From the IMG/VR virus record IMGVR_UViG_3300027969_000429, positions 1 through 23,599 of that record: 23,599 nucleotides of DNA; one strand, written 5' to 3'. Source of the stretch: a virus. Numbering within the stretch: position 1 is the stretch's first letter; each line of letters begins with the position of its first letter. The notes beneath the pieces are model-generated. The model worked only from the letters and a program-made list of their open reading frames with translations, searched no databases and was not told the origin of the DNA. Made by a program: the position numbers and the translations under genes. Shown here in pieces: positions 3,629-14,951 of this stretch.

Positions 3629-4150
3629 ATGCAAATCGCCATCATCACCGCCACCAGTGAGCAAGTCGAAATCGTCGCCGTCAAAGGCGGCTGGTCCACG
3701 ATTCGTGCCACCAATTCGCTGATCCGCTTCGAGCGCAAGGTGCGCAACAGCGCACTGAGCGACCACGCGGAGATCACCGCGCAGAAAGCGCCCACTACCG
3801 CCAAGCTGGTGGCCGAGAAGCTGGCTAAGCCCGCCGTCAGCGTGGAAGCCGTGCAGGAAGGGCGCAAGAATGGCGTCGTCTTCGCTGGCTACCTACCCCA
3901 ATACGAAGCGTACGCCGCGAAACGCGCCGACGGCACGACCAAGCGCTCGATCGACAAGGGCGACAACGTGGCCGTGCTCCTGCGAAATCTGGACCTGGGC
4001 GACGTCTACGACACCGTCTCGAGCGCGACCGGCACGTCGGTGGCTGACCTCTTCCACCGCTTCGGCCACCTCAACCCCGGCATGCAGCGCATGAATCTGG
4101 GCAACATGTTCCGCCGCGCCCTGCGCGAAGCCGCCGCCGCGACCGCTTGA
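3629..4150 (+). CDS. 173-aa basic protein, unknown function
   Basis: The last and longest of the small cassette genes. Residues 1-45 form a beta-rich N-terminal part (MQIAIITATSEQVEIVAVKG). A basic Ala/Lys-rich linker follows (about 45-80), and then a helical C-terminal domain with a SIDKGDNVAVLLRNLDLGDV stretch and a SVADLFHRFGHLNPGMQRMN stretch. Phages sometimes place late helical domains of this kind on DNA-associated proteins, but no known motif is visible. The gene ends seven bases before a TTCG-loop hairpin. Not recognised; coding is well supported by the cassette and codon pattern. Confidence 0.8.
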   Translation: MQIAIITATSEQVEIVAVKGGWSTIRATNSLIRFERKVRNSALSDHAEITAQKAPTTAKLVAEKLAKPAVSVEAVQEGRKNGVVFAGYLPQYEAYAAKRADGTTKRSIDKGDNVAVLLRNLDLGDVYDTVSSATGTSVADLFHRFGHLNPGMQRMNLGNMFRRALREAAAATA

Positions 4151-4908: not shown

Positions 4909-5198
4909 GCCCGATGGCTGAGGACTTCGCCACGCTGGGCGTTCGCACGTTAGGGGACGCCGAGGCTCGAATGGCTCGGATTCTGGAAAAGAACCAGCAC
5001 TGGCGGGAGTGCGCCGATGGCTCGTACGAAATGGCGCTCATGCTGGACGGCTATTGGGTGCTCGAAGCGATCGCCATCGAAATGCGGAGGGCCACGGGAG
5101 CGGCTCAAGAGGGTTCGGGCTATATTAGTACCGATACTATACCCGCAGACGCAACGGAGGGCCACGGAGATACCTCTCCGGGGTGTCCGGAGCTATGA
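4905..5198 (+). CDS. 97-aa protein, unknown function
   Basis: The GTG at 4905 overlaps the previous stop (GTGA), with AAAGGCGGG about six bases upstream; an ATG at 4914 is an alternative. Residues 5-65 are helical and acidic (EDFATLGVRTLGDAEARMAR and MLDGYWVLEAIAIEMRRATG). The C-terminal 30 residues are a low-complexity Gly/Thr/Ser/Asp tail read through a region that contains a 13-bp direct repeat and an AT-rich dyad, so that part may be shaped by a DNA or RNA signal. It ends in an ATGA overlap with the nuclease gene. Confidence 0.6.
   Translation: MSPMAEDFATLGVRTLGDAEARMARILEKNQHWRECADGSYEMALMLDGYWVLEAIAIEMRRATGAAQEGSGYISTDTIPADATEGHGDTSPGCPEL
5085..5167. repeat. 13-bp direct repeat flanking an AT-rich dyad
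   Basis: CGGAGGGCCACGG occurs at 5085-5097 and again at 5155-5167. Between them is an AT-rich island in otherwise GC-rich DNA (about 5119-5142) that can fold as CGGG, TATA, GTA paired with TAC, TATA, CCCG around a CCGA loop, with bulges of one and three bases. It lies just upstream of the nuclease start at 5195 and could be a local regulatory element. Confidence 0.35.
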
Positions 5199-5620
5199 GG
5201 CTCCCTGAGCAGCGGCTGAACGACTGGATCGCGAAATGGCTCGCTGGGCGGGCGCTCGTGGAACGCGTCGAGAACCGGGTGAAGCGGGACACGCCCGACA
5301 TCTTCGTGGCCACACCGGCATGGGCCGGGTGGATCGAGTCGAAGGTGCTCCCGGCGTTCCCGAAGCGAGCGACCACCGCCGTGCGACTGGAACACTGGAC
5401 CACCGGGCAACGCTACTTCATGCAGCGGCTGCTTCCGACTGCGGCGAAAGGGTGGCTGGTGTGCCGGGTGGCCGACGAGGTCTTCGTGTTCAACGGCGCG
5501 AAGCTGGCGACTCACGGGCAGGACTGGACCGAGTCGGACTGGCGGGCGATGGCCGTCGTGGTGCAAGTGCGAAACGATCACGGTGGGGCGCTGCTTGCGG
5601 CACTGGGCGCGGTGTGTTAG
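5195..5620 (+). CDS. Probable PD-(D/E)XK (VRR-NUC-like) nuclease
   Basis: A 141-aa protein starting in an ATGA overlap (MRLPEQRLNDWIAKWLAGRA). It shows the order expected of small phage VRR-NUC or endonuclease-VII-like PD-(D/E)XK enzymes: an N-terminal helix with acidic residues (E23, E26), TPDIF with Pro34-Asp35, then WIESK with Glu48 and Lys50 as the E-x-K half, then TTGQRYFMQRL and a late beta strand (DEVFVFNG). Such enzymes cut DNA using a metal ion and serve in recombination, junction resolution or packaging. Its TAG stop lies inside the -10 hexamer of the next promoter. The family call rests on motif order alone. Confidence 0.75.
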   Translation: MRLPEQRLNDWIAKWLAGRALVERVENRVKRDTPDIFVATPAWAGWIESKVLPAFPKRATTAVRLEHWTTGQRYFMQRLLPTAAKGWLVCRVADEVFVFNGAKLATHGQDWTESDWRAMAVVVQVRNDHGGALLAALGAVC

Positions 5621-5740: not shown

Positions 5741-5963
5741 CCCCGTTCCACTGTTCCACCAAGATGGAACGCCCAATGGAACGCCTCTCCCATTCGAAAA
5801 AAGACCCTCTGTTCCATCGTTCCATGCATACGCGGGGAAAAAGCCCGTGTTTTAAAACCTGGATATGGGGGGATTATCGGTGGAACGATGGAACAATACT
5901 CTTCTCTCGAATGGAGAAGCCGTTCCATTGCTGTTCCATCTTGGTGGAACGATGGAACAAGAA
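5741..5963. repeat. 220-bp imperfect palindrome of GTTCCA/TGGAAC hexamers
   Basis: Twelve hexamers are arranged as three groups of two GTTCCA followed by two TGGAAC: 5745, 5753 / 5765, 5777; 5811, 5819 / 5881, 5889; 5922, 5933 / 5945, 5953. The left arm (about 5741-5826) and the reverse complement of the right arm (about 5880-5963) align along their whole length with few differences. An 18-bp block (GTTCCACCAAGATGGAAC, 5753-5770) has its exact reverse complement at 5933-5950, and a 14-bp block (5811-5824) at 5881-5894. The centre contains the palindrome GTTTTAAAAC (5849-5858). It lies 260 bp upstream of the small-terminase gene. Candidate roles are packaging site, origin or operator. Confidence 0.85.
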
Positions 5964-6045: not shown

Positions 6046-6074
6046 TTGACACGAAGCTCTCGTAGTCCTATAGT
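6046..6074 (+). promoter_or_regulatory. Sigma-70-like promoter feeding the tandem-repeat region
   Basis: Perfect TTGACA at 6046-6051, a 17-bp spacer and TATAGT at 6069-6074. The first of two 46-bp repeats begins inside the -10 hexamer, so a protein binding the repeat dyad would cover it. It would transcribe into the small-terminase gene at 6224. Confidence 0.6.
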
Positions 6075-6161
6075 CCAGAACTATTGAAAGTGGCTCTTCG
6101 ATAGCTTCCGACTTCATAGTCTATGACTATCGGCGGTGACTCTTCGATAGCTTCTTTCCGC
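6070..6161. repeat. Two 46-bp tandem repeats with dyads, operator-like
   Basis: Unit 1 starts at 6070, unit 2 at 6116. Over 39 aligned positions 31 agree, including an exact CTCTTCGATAGCTTC at 6094-6108 and 6140-6154. Each unit opens with a dyad: ATAGT-CCAGA-ACTAT (6070-6084) and ATAGTC-TAT-GACTAT (6116-6130). Unit 1 overlaps the -10 of the promoter at 6046. The layout fits cooperative binding of a dimeric regulator, or of the small terminase encoded next. Confidence 0.8.
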
Positions 6162-6223: not shown

Positions 6224-6883
6224 ATGTGGATGACCGACGAAAAGCTGCTCGAAGACCGTGGTGCCGAAACCATCGCGGAATACGAAAGACGCGCCCATGT
6301 GCCGATCAAGGTGCTGCTCGACGCGATTCGACGTGACCGCGTGCGCCACCCGGTGAATTCGGTCTCTTTCTCTCCGGAAGCTCTTAGCTGCAATTTGCCT
6401 GACGTCGAGGCCCGTGGCGACCTGCAGCTGCACGAGGAGACGAAAGCCTACAAAATGCTGGTCTTTATCGCCGAGTTCCGGGACGGCCCCGATACTGCGA
6501 AATTCAGCATGCGGCACGCTTACACGACGGCGGGCATTGCACGGCAGACGATTTCGGACTGGCGCTCCTACCATAAGCTGTTCGACGGCATCGTGGACGC
6601 GATCCAAGAGGAGATGATCGACACGATGCGAGCCGAGGCTTACCGCCGGTCCGTAGTCGGCGTGGACGAGCCGCTGGTGCACCAAGGCCTCAAGACGGGC
6701 GAGACGGTGAAAAAGTACAGCGATTCGCTCCTGCAGTTTACGCTGTCGGGCTACGACTCGAAATTCCGCTCGAAAGACGTGAACATGAACGTCTCGGGCT
6801 CCCTGGATTCGACCATCAACATCGAAGGTGTCCGTGATCGCCTCGCCCAGCGTCTCCAGCAAAAATCGCTCAAAGAAGAGTAG
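6224..6883 (+). CDS. terS: Terminase small subunit
   Basis: A 219-aa protein immediately upstream of and overlapping the large terminase. Residues 75-135 contain a helix-turn-helix-like segment (TTAGIARQTISDWRSYHKLF), followed by a helical oligomerisation region and a C-terminal part (LLQFTLSGYDSKFRSKDVNM, then a SGSL turn) of the kind found in phage small terminases. Small terminases bind the packaging site and hand DNA to the motor. I chose ATG 6224; the ATG at 6230 is also possible. Neither has a ribosome site, and a promoter -10 ends only eight bases upstream, so translation may be leaderless. The role rests on position plus fold pattern. Confidence 0.8.
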   Translation: MWMTDEKLLEDRGAETIAEYERRAHVPIKVLLDAIRRDRVRHPVNSVSFSPEALSCNLPDVEARGDLQLHEETKAYKMLVFIAEFRDGPDTAKFSMRHAYTTAGIARQTISDWRSYHKLFDGIVDAIQEEMIDTMRAEAYRRSVVGVDEPLVHQGLKTGETVKKYSDSLLQFTLSGYDSKFRSKDVNMNVSGSLDSTINIEGVRDRLAQRLQQKSLKEE

Positions 6884-8270
6884 AGCGCTGGCGCTGGACC
6901 CGGCGAACTGGAACGAGTTCGTGTCGGAGTTGTCCGACCGGGAAGCGCTGGAGCTGTACTACGACTGGCCGACTTTCGCGCGACCCAACCAGCTAATCCC
7001 GCCCGGTGACGCGTGGACCTACTGGCTGATCCTCGCGGGCCGGGGTTGGGGCAAGACCCGGTGCGGCGCGGAGTTCGTGCGCTACCACGTCGAGAACAAG
7101 CTGGCGGGCCGAATAGCGCTGATCGCGGAGGACGCGGGCGACGCGCGGGACGTCATGATCGAGGGCGAATCGGGGATCCTGGCGATTTCGCACCCGCGCT
7201 GCAAACCGATCTACTCGCCATCGAAACGCCGCGTGGAGTGGCCCAACGGCGCGATCGCGACGATCTACTCGGACAACGACCCGGAGACGCTGCGCGGACC
7301 CCAGCACGATTTGGCATGGGTGGACGAACTGGCGAAATTCCGAAATGCCGAGACCATGTGGTCCAACTTGATGTTCGGGCTGCGACTGGGCCAGCGCCCC
7401 CGCGTTTGCATCACGACCACGCCCAAGCCGATCCCCATCGTGCGGCGACTCATGGACGACGAGCGCACCTGCCTGACCACGGGCACGACGCACGAGAATT
7501 TCTACAACCTCGCCCCGACGTTTCGTAACGAAATCATCAGCCAGTACGAGGGCACGCGGATCGGGCGGCAGGAGCTGTACGCCGAGGTGATCGACCCGGA
7601 AGACTACGGCATCGTGAAACGCCAGTGGTTCAAAATCTGGGACGCCGACAAGCCGCTCCCGGACTTCCTGTACGTGCTGCAGTCCTACGACTGCGCCTAC
7701 ACCGAGAAGACGATCAACGACCCGACCGCGTGCAGTGTCTGGGGCGTGTTCCGACCCAACGCGGACGCCAAAATGTCGGTGATGCTAATCGACTGCTGGG
7801 AGGACCACCTCGCCTACCCGGACCTCAAGCCCCGAATCGTGGACGAGTACGCCGCGATCTACGGCGAACCGGGCAAGAAGGTGGACCTAGTGCTCGTGGA
7901 GGACAAGGCGTCGGGGATCAGCATACTGCAAGACCTGCAGCGGGCGGGCATCCCGTGCCGCGCCTACAACCCGGGGCGGGCCGACAAGGTCCAGCGGCTG
8001 CACCTAGTGGCCAACATCATCGCCCATGGCCTCGTCTACGTCCCCGAGTCCACGCTGCACCGGGGTCACCCGCGCGACTGGGCCGAAGTGCTGGTAAGCC
8101 AGATCTGCTCGTTCCCCGAAGCCGAGCGGGACGACCTGACTGATACGACGTCGCAAGCGCTGCGACTGCTACGCGACATGGGCTTCCTGCTGGTGGACCC
8201 CGTCGCACCCGACACCGACTACGTGGATGAAGAGTACCGCACCCGAGTGGAGAACCCTTATGCCCAATGA
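6834..8270 (+). CDS. terL: Terminase large subunit (packaging ATPase-nuclease)
   Basis: From GTG 6834 (GAAGG five bases upstream) the product is 478 aa; GTG 6828 would add two residues. The ATPase half has a Walker A motif GRGWGKT (69-75), Walker B LAWVDE (160-165) and a coupling motif ITTTPKP (193-199). The nuclease half has the acidic positions expected of the RNase H-like fold: YDCAY (D286), VLVEDKASG (E356, D357) and RDDLTD (D433, D434). It drives DNA into the prohead and cuts at the end of packaging. It overlaps the small-subunit gene by 50 bases and the next gene by 11. Length is normal. Confidence 0.95.
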   Translation: MIASPSVSSKNRSKKSRALALDPANWNEFVSELSDREALELYYDWPTFARPNQLIPPGDAWTYWLILAGRGWGKTRCGAEFVRYHVENKLAGRIALIAEDAGDARDVMIEGESGILAISHPRCKPIYSPSKRRVEWPNGAIATIYSDNDPETLRGPQHDLAWVDELAKFRNAETMWSNLMFGLRLGQRPRVCITTTPKPIPIVRRLMDDERTCLTTGTTHENFYNLAPTFRNEIISQYEGTRIGRQELYAEVIDPEDYGIVKRQWFKIWDADKPLPDFLYVLQSYDCAYTEKTINDPTACSVWGVFRPNADAKMSVMLIDCWEDHLAYPDLKPRIVDEYAAIYGEPGKKVDLVLVEDKASGISILQDLQRAGIPCRAYNPGRADKVQRLHLVANIIAHGLVYVPESTLHRGHPRDWAEVLVSQICSFPEAERDDLTDTTSQALRLLRDMGFLLVDPVAPDTDYVDEEYRTRVENPYAQ

Positions 8271-14378: not shown

Positions 14379-14951
14379 ATGTCTTCTACTAATCAACCGT
14401 TCGGTCTGGTTCCATCGTTCCATCCTACTGGTTTGGATCGCGCTGTTGCCTTGACTGACGGTATTGCTTCGGGCTACAGCTCGGCCATCTTAAAAGGCCA
14501 GCCAGTAGCTCTCAACAGCTCCGGCGTTATCGTCGCCGCTACTGCTGGCAGCGCCTACCAAGGCGCGTTCGCTGGTGTGCAGTGGACCGATACAACTGGC
14601 CGTTTCCGCGTGTCCAATTACTGGCCCGCGTCCACCGCGTATATTACCGGTTCGTGCGTAGCTTATTACTACAGCGATCCTAATATCGTTTATGCCATCC
14701 AAGCTGATGGTTCTTTAGCTCAGACCTCTATTGGCGATCAAGCGAACTTCTCCAACATCACCGCTGGTTCTACGACCACTGGCTTGTCGGCTTGCACGAT
14801 CTCCACTTCGTTGGTTGGCACTAGTGCCGTTGGTGACTTGCGCATCATCGGATTGTATACCGGCGTGGATAACGCTTGGGGTGACTCGTACACCGTGGTT
14901 AACGTCCAAGTTAGCCGCAGCCAGTACGTTGCTACCATTAACGCTATTTAA
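14379..14951 (+). CDS. Decoration-like structural protein
   Basis: The ATG at 14379 follows GGAGAG by seven bases; the open frame extends further upstream, but without a start site. The 190-aa product begins MSSTNQPFGLVPSFHPTGLD and is mostly beta-rich with Thr, Ser and Gly. It ends just before the major capsid gene, whose start has AAGGAGA. Small beta-rich proteins next to the capsid gene often bind the outside of the capsid. This is inferred from composition and position. Confidence 0.75.
   Translation: MSSTNQPFGLVPSFHPTGLDRAVALTDGIASGYSSAILKGQPVALNSSGVIVAATAGSAYQGAFAGVQWTDTTGRFRVSNYWPASTAYITGSCVAYYYSDPNIVYAIQADGSLAQTSIGDQANFSNITAGSTTTGLSACTISTSLVGTSAVGDLRIIGLYTGVDNAWGDSYTVVNVQVSRSQYVATINAI

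Follow-up and report, generated by a model that had tools for sequence, protein, structure and literature searches.

Paired GTTCCA repeat arrays as candidate replication origins in a family of lake phages

Introduction

The closest described systems are the Rep-iteron origins of SaPI and PICI elements (PMC6092414, PMC7581432). A PICI has one origin, which lies directly 3' of a VapE-type rep gene and has an AT-rich centre (PMC6092414, PMC7581432). Such origins have two sets of short iterons around a central region, with direct pairs at 8 bp, steps of 11 bp and inverted inner pairs about 70 bp apart, and this grammar, when found 3' of rep in SaPI-type islands, marks a proven iteron origin. The array described here shares this repeat layout.

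Two other systems invite comparison. Phage P4 has two separate cis sites, ori and crr, with inverted and direct short repeats and a link to a primase-helicase. The locus analysed here is similar in that two separate cis repeat sites are tied to a primase, but here about 20 kb separates the sites, and the primase, which has no fused helicase, is apparently a different protein from the one that binds the repeats. The oriV of RSF1010 combines iterons with the oppositely oriented initiation sites ssiA and ssiB, placed side by side, and with an AEP-type primase, RepB'. Iterons, two oppositely oriented sites and an AEP-type primase are also the ingredients of the present system, where, unlike in RSF1010, the two sites do not adjoin.

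In the open-access literature we found no paper on the replication origins of 2-aminoadenine phages. Here we analyse a repeat array in a viral DNA, its counterparts in related phages, and the functions that could account for them. By the window we mean the whole stretch analysed, a complete IMG/VR record of 23,599 bases that is classed as linear, as fragments often are.

Results

Anatomy of the array

Twelve copies of the hexamer GTTCCA or its reverse complement TGGAAC lie within 214 bp of the window (5745-5958), starting at 5745, 5753, 5765, 5777, 5811, 5819, 5881, 5889, 5922, 5933, 5945 and 5953. They are housed in the 600-bp gap that separates a phrog_2165 gene from the gene of the small terminase subunit, terS (Table 1). 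A preliminary description of this DNA had reported all twelve as a nested palindrome upstream of the terminase, and we located every one of them; the 18-bp block at 5753-5770 indeed has its exact reverse complement at 5933-5950. The outer arms extend over 46 bp with 76% complementarity (5745-5790 and 5913-5958). The middle group does form perfect inverted arms, which span 15 bp (5810-5824 and 5881-5895) rather than the 14 first given, but it is a pair of pairs split by a 56-bp core and not a compact set of four. Within this core, GTTTTAAAAC occupies 5849-5858. The 8-bp spacing between hexamers that had been pointed out is present, together with spacings of 11 and 12 bp.

The window as a whole holds 31 copies of the hexamer, where 12.1 are expected. 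When the window was shuffled 100 times by a first-order Markov model, the most frequent hexamer of any 214-bp stretch never exceeded six copies, against the twelve observed, which bears out the earlier remark that ordinary intergenic DNA does not look like this. Rfam and tRNA scans gave no matches, and neither did a blastn search of the array region against phages. A lone GTTCCATCGTTCCA within a coding gene, at window positions 14409-14422, is probably there by chance.

Table 1. Features of the array region (window coordinates)
Feature	Coordinates	Strand	Remarks
Whole array (putative iterons)	5745..5958	.	12 x GTTCCA/TGGAAC, two inverted halves of six
Left outer quad	5745..5782	.	GTTCCA-N2-GTTCCA-N6-TGGAAC-N6-TGGAAC
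Left arm	5783..5810	.	with TCCCATTCGAA element; from inverted-repeat analysis and consensus of relatives
Left inner pair	5811..5824	.	GTTCCATCGTTCCA
Core	5825..5880	.	asymmetric, 56 bp (TGCATACGCGGGG...GTGTTTTAAAACCTGGATATGGGGGG...), GC 0.50
Right inner pair	5881..5894	.	TGGAACGATGGAAC
Right arm	5895..5921	.	with TCGAATGGAGAAG, complementary in part to left arm
Right outer quad	5922..5958	.	GTTCCA-N5-GTTCCA-N6-TGGAAC-N2-TGGAAC
phrog_2165 gene	5183..5620	+	last early gene before the array; VRR-NUC-like by eye
Promoter-like site	6046..6074	+	TTGACA-N17-TATAGT toward terS, 11/12 matches
Two 39-bp direct repeats	6070..6154	.	each opening with ATAGTC-N3-(G/A)ACTAT palindrome
Terminase small subunit (terS)	6224..6883	+	phrog_4044; first gene past the array
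Terminase large subunit (TerL)	6828..8270	+	query used for finding relatives

Paired arrays in relatives

A search with TerL yielded 80 viral loci, and 53 stretches in viral contigs fitted a pattern in which two inner pairs are separated by 40-70 bp, with two such stretches in many genomes. The pattern of the left outer quad (hexamers at 0, 8, 20 and 31/32) recurs in most array-bearing terL relatives. Two arrays each are present in G005, G007, G012, G014, G006, G016 and G004, the terS array of G007 being decayed. The search for arrays before terS in relatives, which the preliminary description had recommended, was successful, and it brought to light a second one in the genomes complete enough to tell: one array of the pair lies upstream of terS, the other upstream of an AEP primase gene (phrog_21866, PF22548), which is the first gene past it. 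The early segment between the arrays measures 19-22 kb in eight lake-family genomes. We infer that a second array is present in the genome of the window too, whose early region falls outside the window. A prophage in an alphaproteobacterial MAG (L223) has a primase-related gene, an array, a small gene and terL, in this order.

The geometry of the arrays is conserved. The downstream gene was identified for 76 unique arrays (50 terS, 26 primase), and in these the inner set is 82-86 bp long in 46 of the terS arrays and 19 of the primase arrays. The cores of both arrays are homologous in the relatives and are oppositely oriented relative to the downstream gene: 41 terS arrays have the forward orientation and none the reverse, 17 primase arrays have the reverse and none the forward, and 18 are undecided. 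Because core orientations at terS and at the primase are opposed, the two copies of a lake-family genome are mutually inverted.

Inverted copies, seen by eye also in the isolated phage SH-Ab 15497, and core palindromes such as CTGTCGCAAGCTTGCGACAG could belong to a site of recombination, resolution or partition, used by a recombinase, a telomere resolvase or a centromere-binding protein, or to a point of module exchange; structural modules were swapped at just these borders, and replication modules were kept. However, the copies are direct, by eye, in the isolates PMBT28 and Kokobel2, no recombinase or partition gene was recognised among the proteins scanned, and terminal repeats in the records of G005 and G007 close each of these into a single circle. 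We regard such a function as improbable.

Association with the replication module

The phage G005, whose TerL is about 81% identical to that of the window, encodes PurZ (NF038379, 350 against a cut-off of 300) and DpoZ (NF038380, 798 against a cut-off of 500), both above the curated limits and in keeping with a genome in which 2-aminoadenine (Z) takes the place of adenine, and it also has MazZ-like and YfbR-like (DatZ-like) genes. The window's phage presumably has 2-aminoadenine DNA too, the PurZ/DpoZ region lying outside the window. The early module of G005 further includes a histone-deacetylase-domain protein (L140 1602-2438; PF00850, 1.4e-32).

Isolated phages with primases 40-45% identical to those of the lake family have similar arrays. 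The 2-aminoadenine isolates SH-Ab 15497, PMBT28 and Kokobel2 share with the lake family the primase, SNF2, gp33-like, gp34-like, UvrD, DpoZ, PurZ, MazZ and DatZ genes, and paired arrays bracket the replication module in these three as well as in K21lambda1 and PSA28. The word is GTTCCA in PMBT28, K21lambda1 and PSA28, but differs from that of the lake family in SH-Ab 15497 (GGTTGC) and Kokobel2 (GGTTCCA). In contrast, the structural modules of SH-Ab 15497, PMBT28 and Kokobel2 are unrelated to those of the lake family, and the family's capsid, portal and terminase proteins had no match in these phages or in K21lambda1. Conversely, ctpbd312 (MW202545) has a major capsid protein (MCP) 88% identical to that of the lake family, but its record gave no primase match and the 28 kb examined contain no array. 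The arrays travel with the replication module, since they are kept across unrelated structural modules and are absent from the region of ctpbd312 that was read.

These results bear on an earlier suggestion, that of a packaging (cos/pac) site, which TerS, the product of the gene at 6224, would recognise. The array does lie 5' of terS, in the window and in the family. Yet a second, equal array stands at the primase. Where terminases are unrelated, the arrays still go with the replication module, and the late-border array of PMBT28 and Kokobel2 lies kilobases from the terminase genes. The recognition helices of TerS also vary widely and freely within the GTTCCA word class, which makes TerS unlikely as the binder; it appears to be the neighbour of the array and not its partner. 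We consider a packaging function very improbable.

Beyond these phages the picture is less clear. Distant primase relatives seemingly lack arrays when scanned at a threshold of seven hexamers, a weak result because isolates carry smaller arrays. There was no clear array in S-2L and a weak one in Barton. The phage phiVC8 (L425), a 2-aminoadenine phage of another type, has an array of GTGGACAC words at 9-bp spacing and a CCCGTCCGACGGG hairpin at about 38275-38530.

Word swaps and the binding protein

Both arrays use GTTCCA in G005, G012, G014, G006 and G016; G004 and G015 have GTTACA/GTTCCA mixtures, and G017 has GTATCC with 9-bp spacing. More generally, where relatives lack GTTCCA arrays, a different word is set in a similar geometry, and the words match between both arrays of one genome while differing from genome to genome. 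When the two arrays of one genome are compared, word positions agree at 90-100%, whereas the non-word sequence is about 0.70 identical, the level that a gappy aligner reaches on shuffled sequence. This disfavours gene conversion, which would have homogenised the non-word sequence as well. Geometry is kept and the word changes in both arrays together, a pattern explained by selection through one trans-acting protein that reads both. The proposal that the arrays are the target of a sequence-specific DNA-binding protein, one of those made at the outset, is well supported by these comparisons, and the protein is most likely encoded by the phage.

The same observations bear on whether such arrays could arise by chance, from a miniature inverted-repeat element or from a host interspersed repeat. 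Some Saprospiraceae and Gemmata genomes are rich in GTTCCA hairpin repeats, but these differ in having a compact layout, and the phage arrays stand apart in keeping to fixed positions and a conserved geometry and in changing their word in concert. The miniature element, which the preliminary description had listed as an option, can be discarded, because the copies occupy two fixed sites and their non-word sequence is at the random level instead of homogeneous. We find all three of these derivations scarcely credible.

Among the cellular repeats, dense compact GTTCCA hairpins were seen in L153-L232 (Saprospiraceae, Gemmata and planctomycete MAGs), with very many in Saprospiraceae C1_MAG_00026. 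The Bacteroidaceae MAG RUI392 has a similar dispersed element (L215 1129-1337, L228 196-394), in which GTTCCA pairs enclose 70 bp of AT-rich DNA; chromosomal genes lie next to it, and TTTCTGTGACA/TGTCACAGAAA flank the copy in L228.

Sister genomes with different words allow candidate binders to be compared. Judged by the primase, SNF2, gp34-like and UvrD proteins, the distance of G037 and G017 (GTATCC) from G039 (GTTCCA) is roughly the same as that between the two. A single column separates the word classes in the primase (V412M) and in UvrD (D363E), and none does in the SNF2 helicase, gp33-like and gp34-like proteins. With zero or one discriminating column each in word-swapped sister genomes, these expected replication proteins are probably not the binders, which counts against an origin.

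The primase C-terminus looked like a winged helix by eye; it is near-identical in sister genomes with differing words, and we rejected it as the binder. It gave no profile match to the C-terminus of SaPI Rep. For a structure model of the primase (pLDDT 88, pTM 0.51), the CAPP Prim-Pol domain was a match and RSF1010 RepB' (3h20, E 4e-4, TM 0.21 on the query) a weak one, and we take the latter to reflect only the shared AEP core; beyond the AEP domain, the C-terminus of the model had no convincing match in the PDB. Nor does the product of a phrog_8941-like gene (3629-4150) seem an obvious binder, its GMQRMNLGN motif being near-constant across word classes.

Promoter-like sites near the arrays

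In the window, the array is followed by a promoter-like site directed toward terS and by two direct repeats (Table 1), which are spaced 46 bp apart and the first of which overlaps the -10 of this promoter. These repeats could be an operator; palindromes resembling their ATAGTC-N3-(G/A)ACTAT are found one at a time, and in a part of the relatives only. Promoter-like sites also occur downstream of 25 of the 26 lake-family primase arrays and after the late-border array of PMBT28, K21lambda1, Kokobel2 and SH-Ab 15497, and in many relatives GTTCCG or a similar half-word lies inside the spacer of the primase promoter.

Such sites would equally suit transcription control, and in this respect speak against a plain origin. 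A phage regulator might bind both arrays and govern the early (primase) and late (terS) units, perhaps by looping, which would account for there being two arrays for two main transcription units and for a binder that is seemingly none of the conserved replication proteins. This is the main rival of the origin, alone or in combination with it. But a sigma70-like site scoring at least 9 lies downstream of just 7 of the 50 lake-family terS arrays, about as in shuffles (10/76), although late promoters need not be of the sigma70 type. Furthermore, twelve sites around a fixed 84-bp inner set exceed the usual needs of an operator, and the same grammar is that of a proven origin in PICIs. A regulatory hub is, in our judgement, a real but somewhat unlikely possibility.

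Other elements recur near the arrays. About 22 of the 26 lake-family primase arrays have a near-perfect TTGACA-N17-TATAAT on the opposite strand, some 30 bp before the primase start and pointing into the array; the isolates lack this motif, which may simply be an accidental feature of the conserved CCACCGAGGTGG leader. A terminator-like hairpin of the type AAGCCCC(C)GTCCGACGGGG turns up repeatedly in L421, L422, L427 and lake-family arrays, either next to an array or placed between its inner and outer hexamers.

Likeness to island origins

Some staphylococcal SaPI-type islands use the word GTTCCA itself. In L109 and L125, which are elements unrelated to the phages, a Rep of VapE type (499 aa, scoring 841 bits against 7pds) is followed by a GTTCCA array. 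L109 matches the SaPI rep region of OL690335 at 68% DNA identity, and the array of OL690335 keeps this geometry but is built of the word TGTCCC; other SaPI-type islands have TGTCTT or TGTCTA words. In the islands L429-L439 and L316, Reps that are 94-100% identical go with differing words (GTTCCA, TGTCTT). The Rep differences fall in the last ~40 residues, with K, R, P or L at IG-x-Q[YH]GF, and judging by these sequences this part looks like a natural specificity segment of SaPI Rep.

Discussion

The likeness to SaPI and PICI origins makes replication the best-fitting function of the arrays, although the analogy is not a proof. We give an even chance to the array belonging to a pair of replication origins or forming half of a bipartite one. 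An origin had been among the first suggestions for this DNA, and it is the one that the comparison with islands favours.

The parallel has its limits. In PICIs a single origin lies 3' of rep, whereas the phage genomes have two arrays each, one preceding an AEP primase gene and one preceding terS, and that of the window sits between the phrog_2165 gene and terS. The phage arrays are doubled, and belong to free-living tailed phages. No VapE/D5-type Rep was recognised among the family replication proteins scanned. An AT-rich centre was not found either in the window (Table 1) or in the family, where mean core GC is 0.52/0.49 and that of the flanks 0.55/0.52, and GC skew shows no switch at the arrays. 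The array may work like a PICI origin, but its core composition, skew and gene order are unlike those of a standard one. PMC8599892 describes 2-aminoadenine DNA as more stable. A:T-rich DNA should then be harder to melt when it carries 2-aminoadenine, and we conjecture that this might explain the missing AT-rich core.

If the arrays are origins, each would be an iteron platform of twelve hexamer half-sites, in two inverted sixes around a core of ~56 bp. In intact genomes one copy precedes terS, where early and late genes meet, and its partner precedes the primase; together they bracket the replication and 2-aminoadenine module. The binding protein would coat the iterons and either pull the halves of the array together or seat two hexamers facing each other; twelve sites arranged as two sixes would perhaps suit two initiator hexamers. 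Once bound, it would distort or open the core and assist in loading the replication helicase along with the AEP primase; in the array before the primase, this binding might double as a control on the promoter of that gene. Initiation activity, double-hexamer loading and autoregulation are all steps that this model would predict. Its most specific form combines paired twelve-site origins of double-hexamer type, a binder for which the word switches in both arrays at once, and the absence of the AT-rich melting region of other iteron origins, as Z replaces A. We hold this combination to be doubtful.

For the cultivated phages SH-Ab 15497, PMBT28 and Kokobel2, the arrays provide a concrete candidate site for the start of replication. 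The word swaps between sister genomes offer a route to the binding protein, and to the way in which an initiator and its site may change specificity together.
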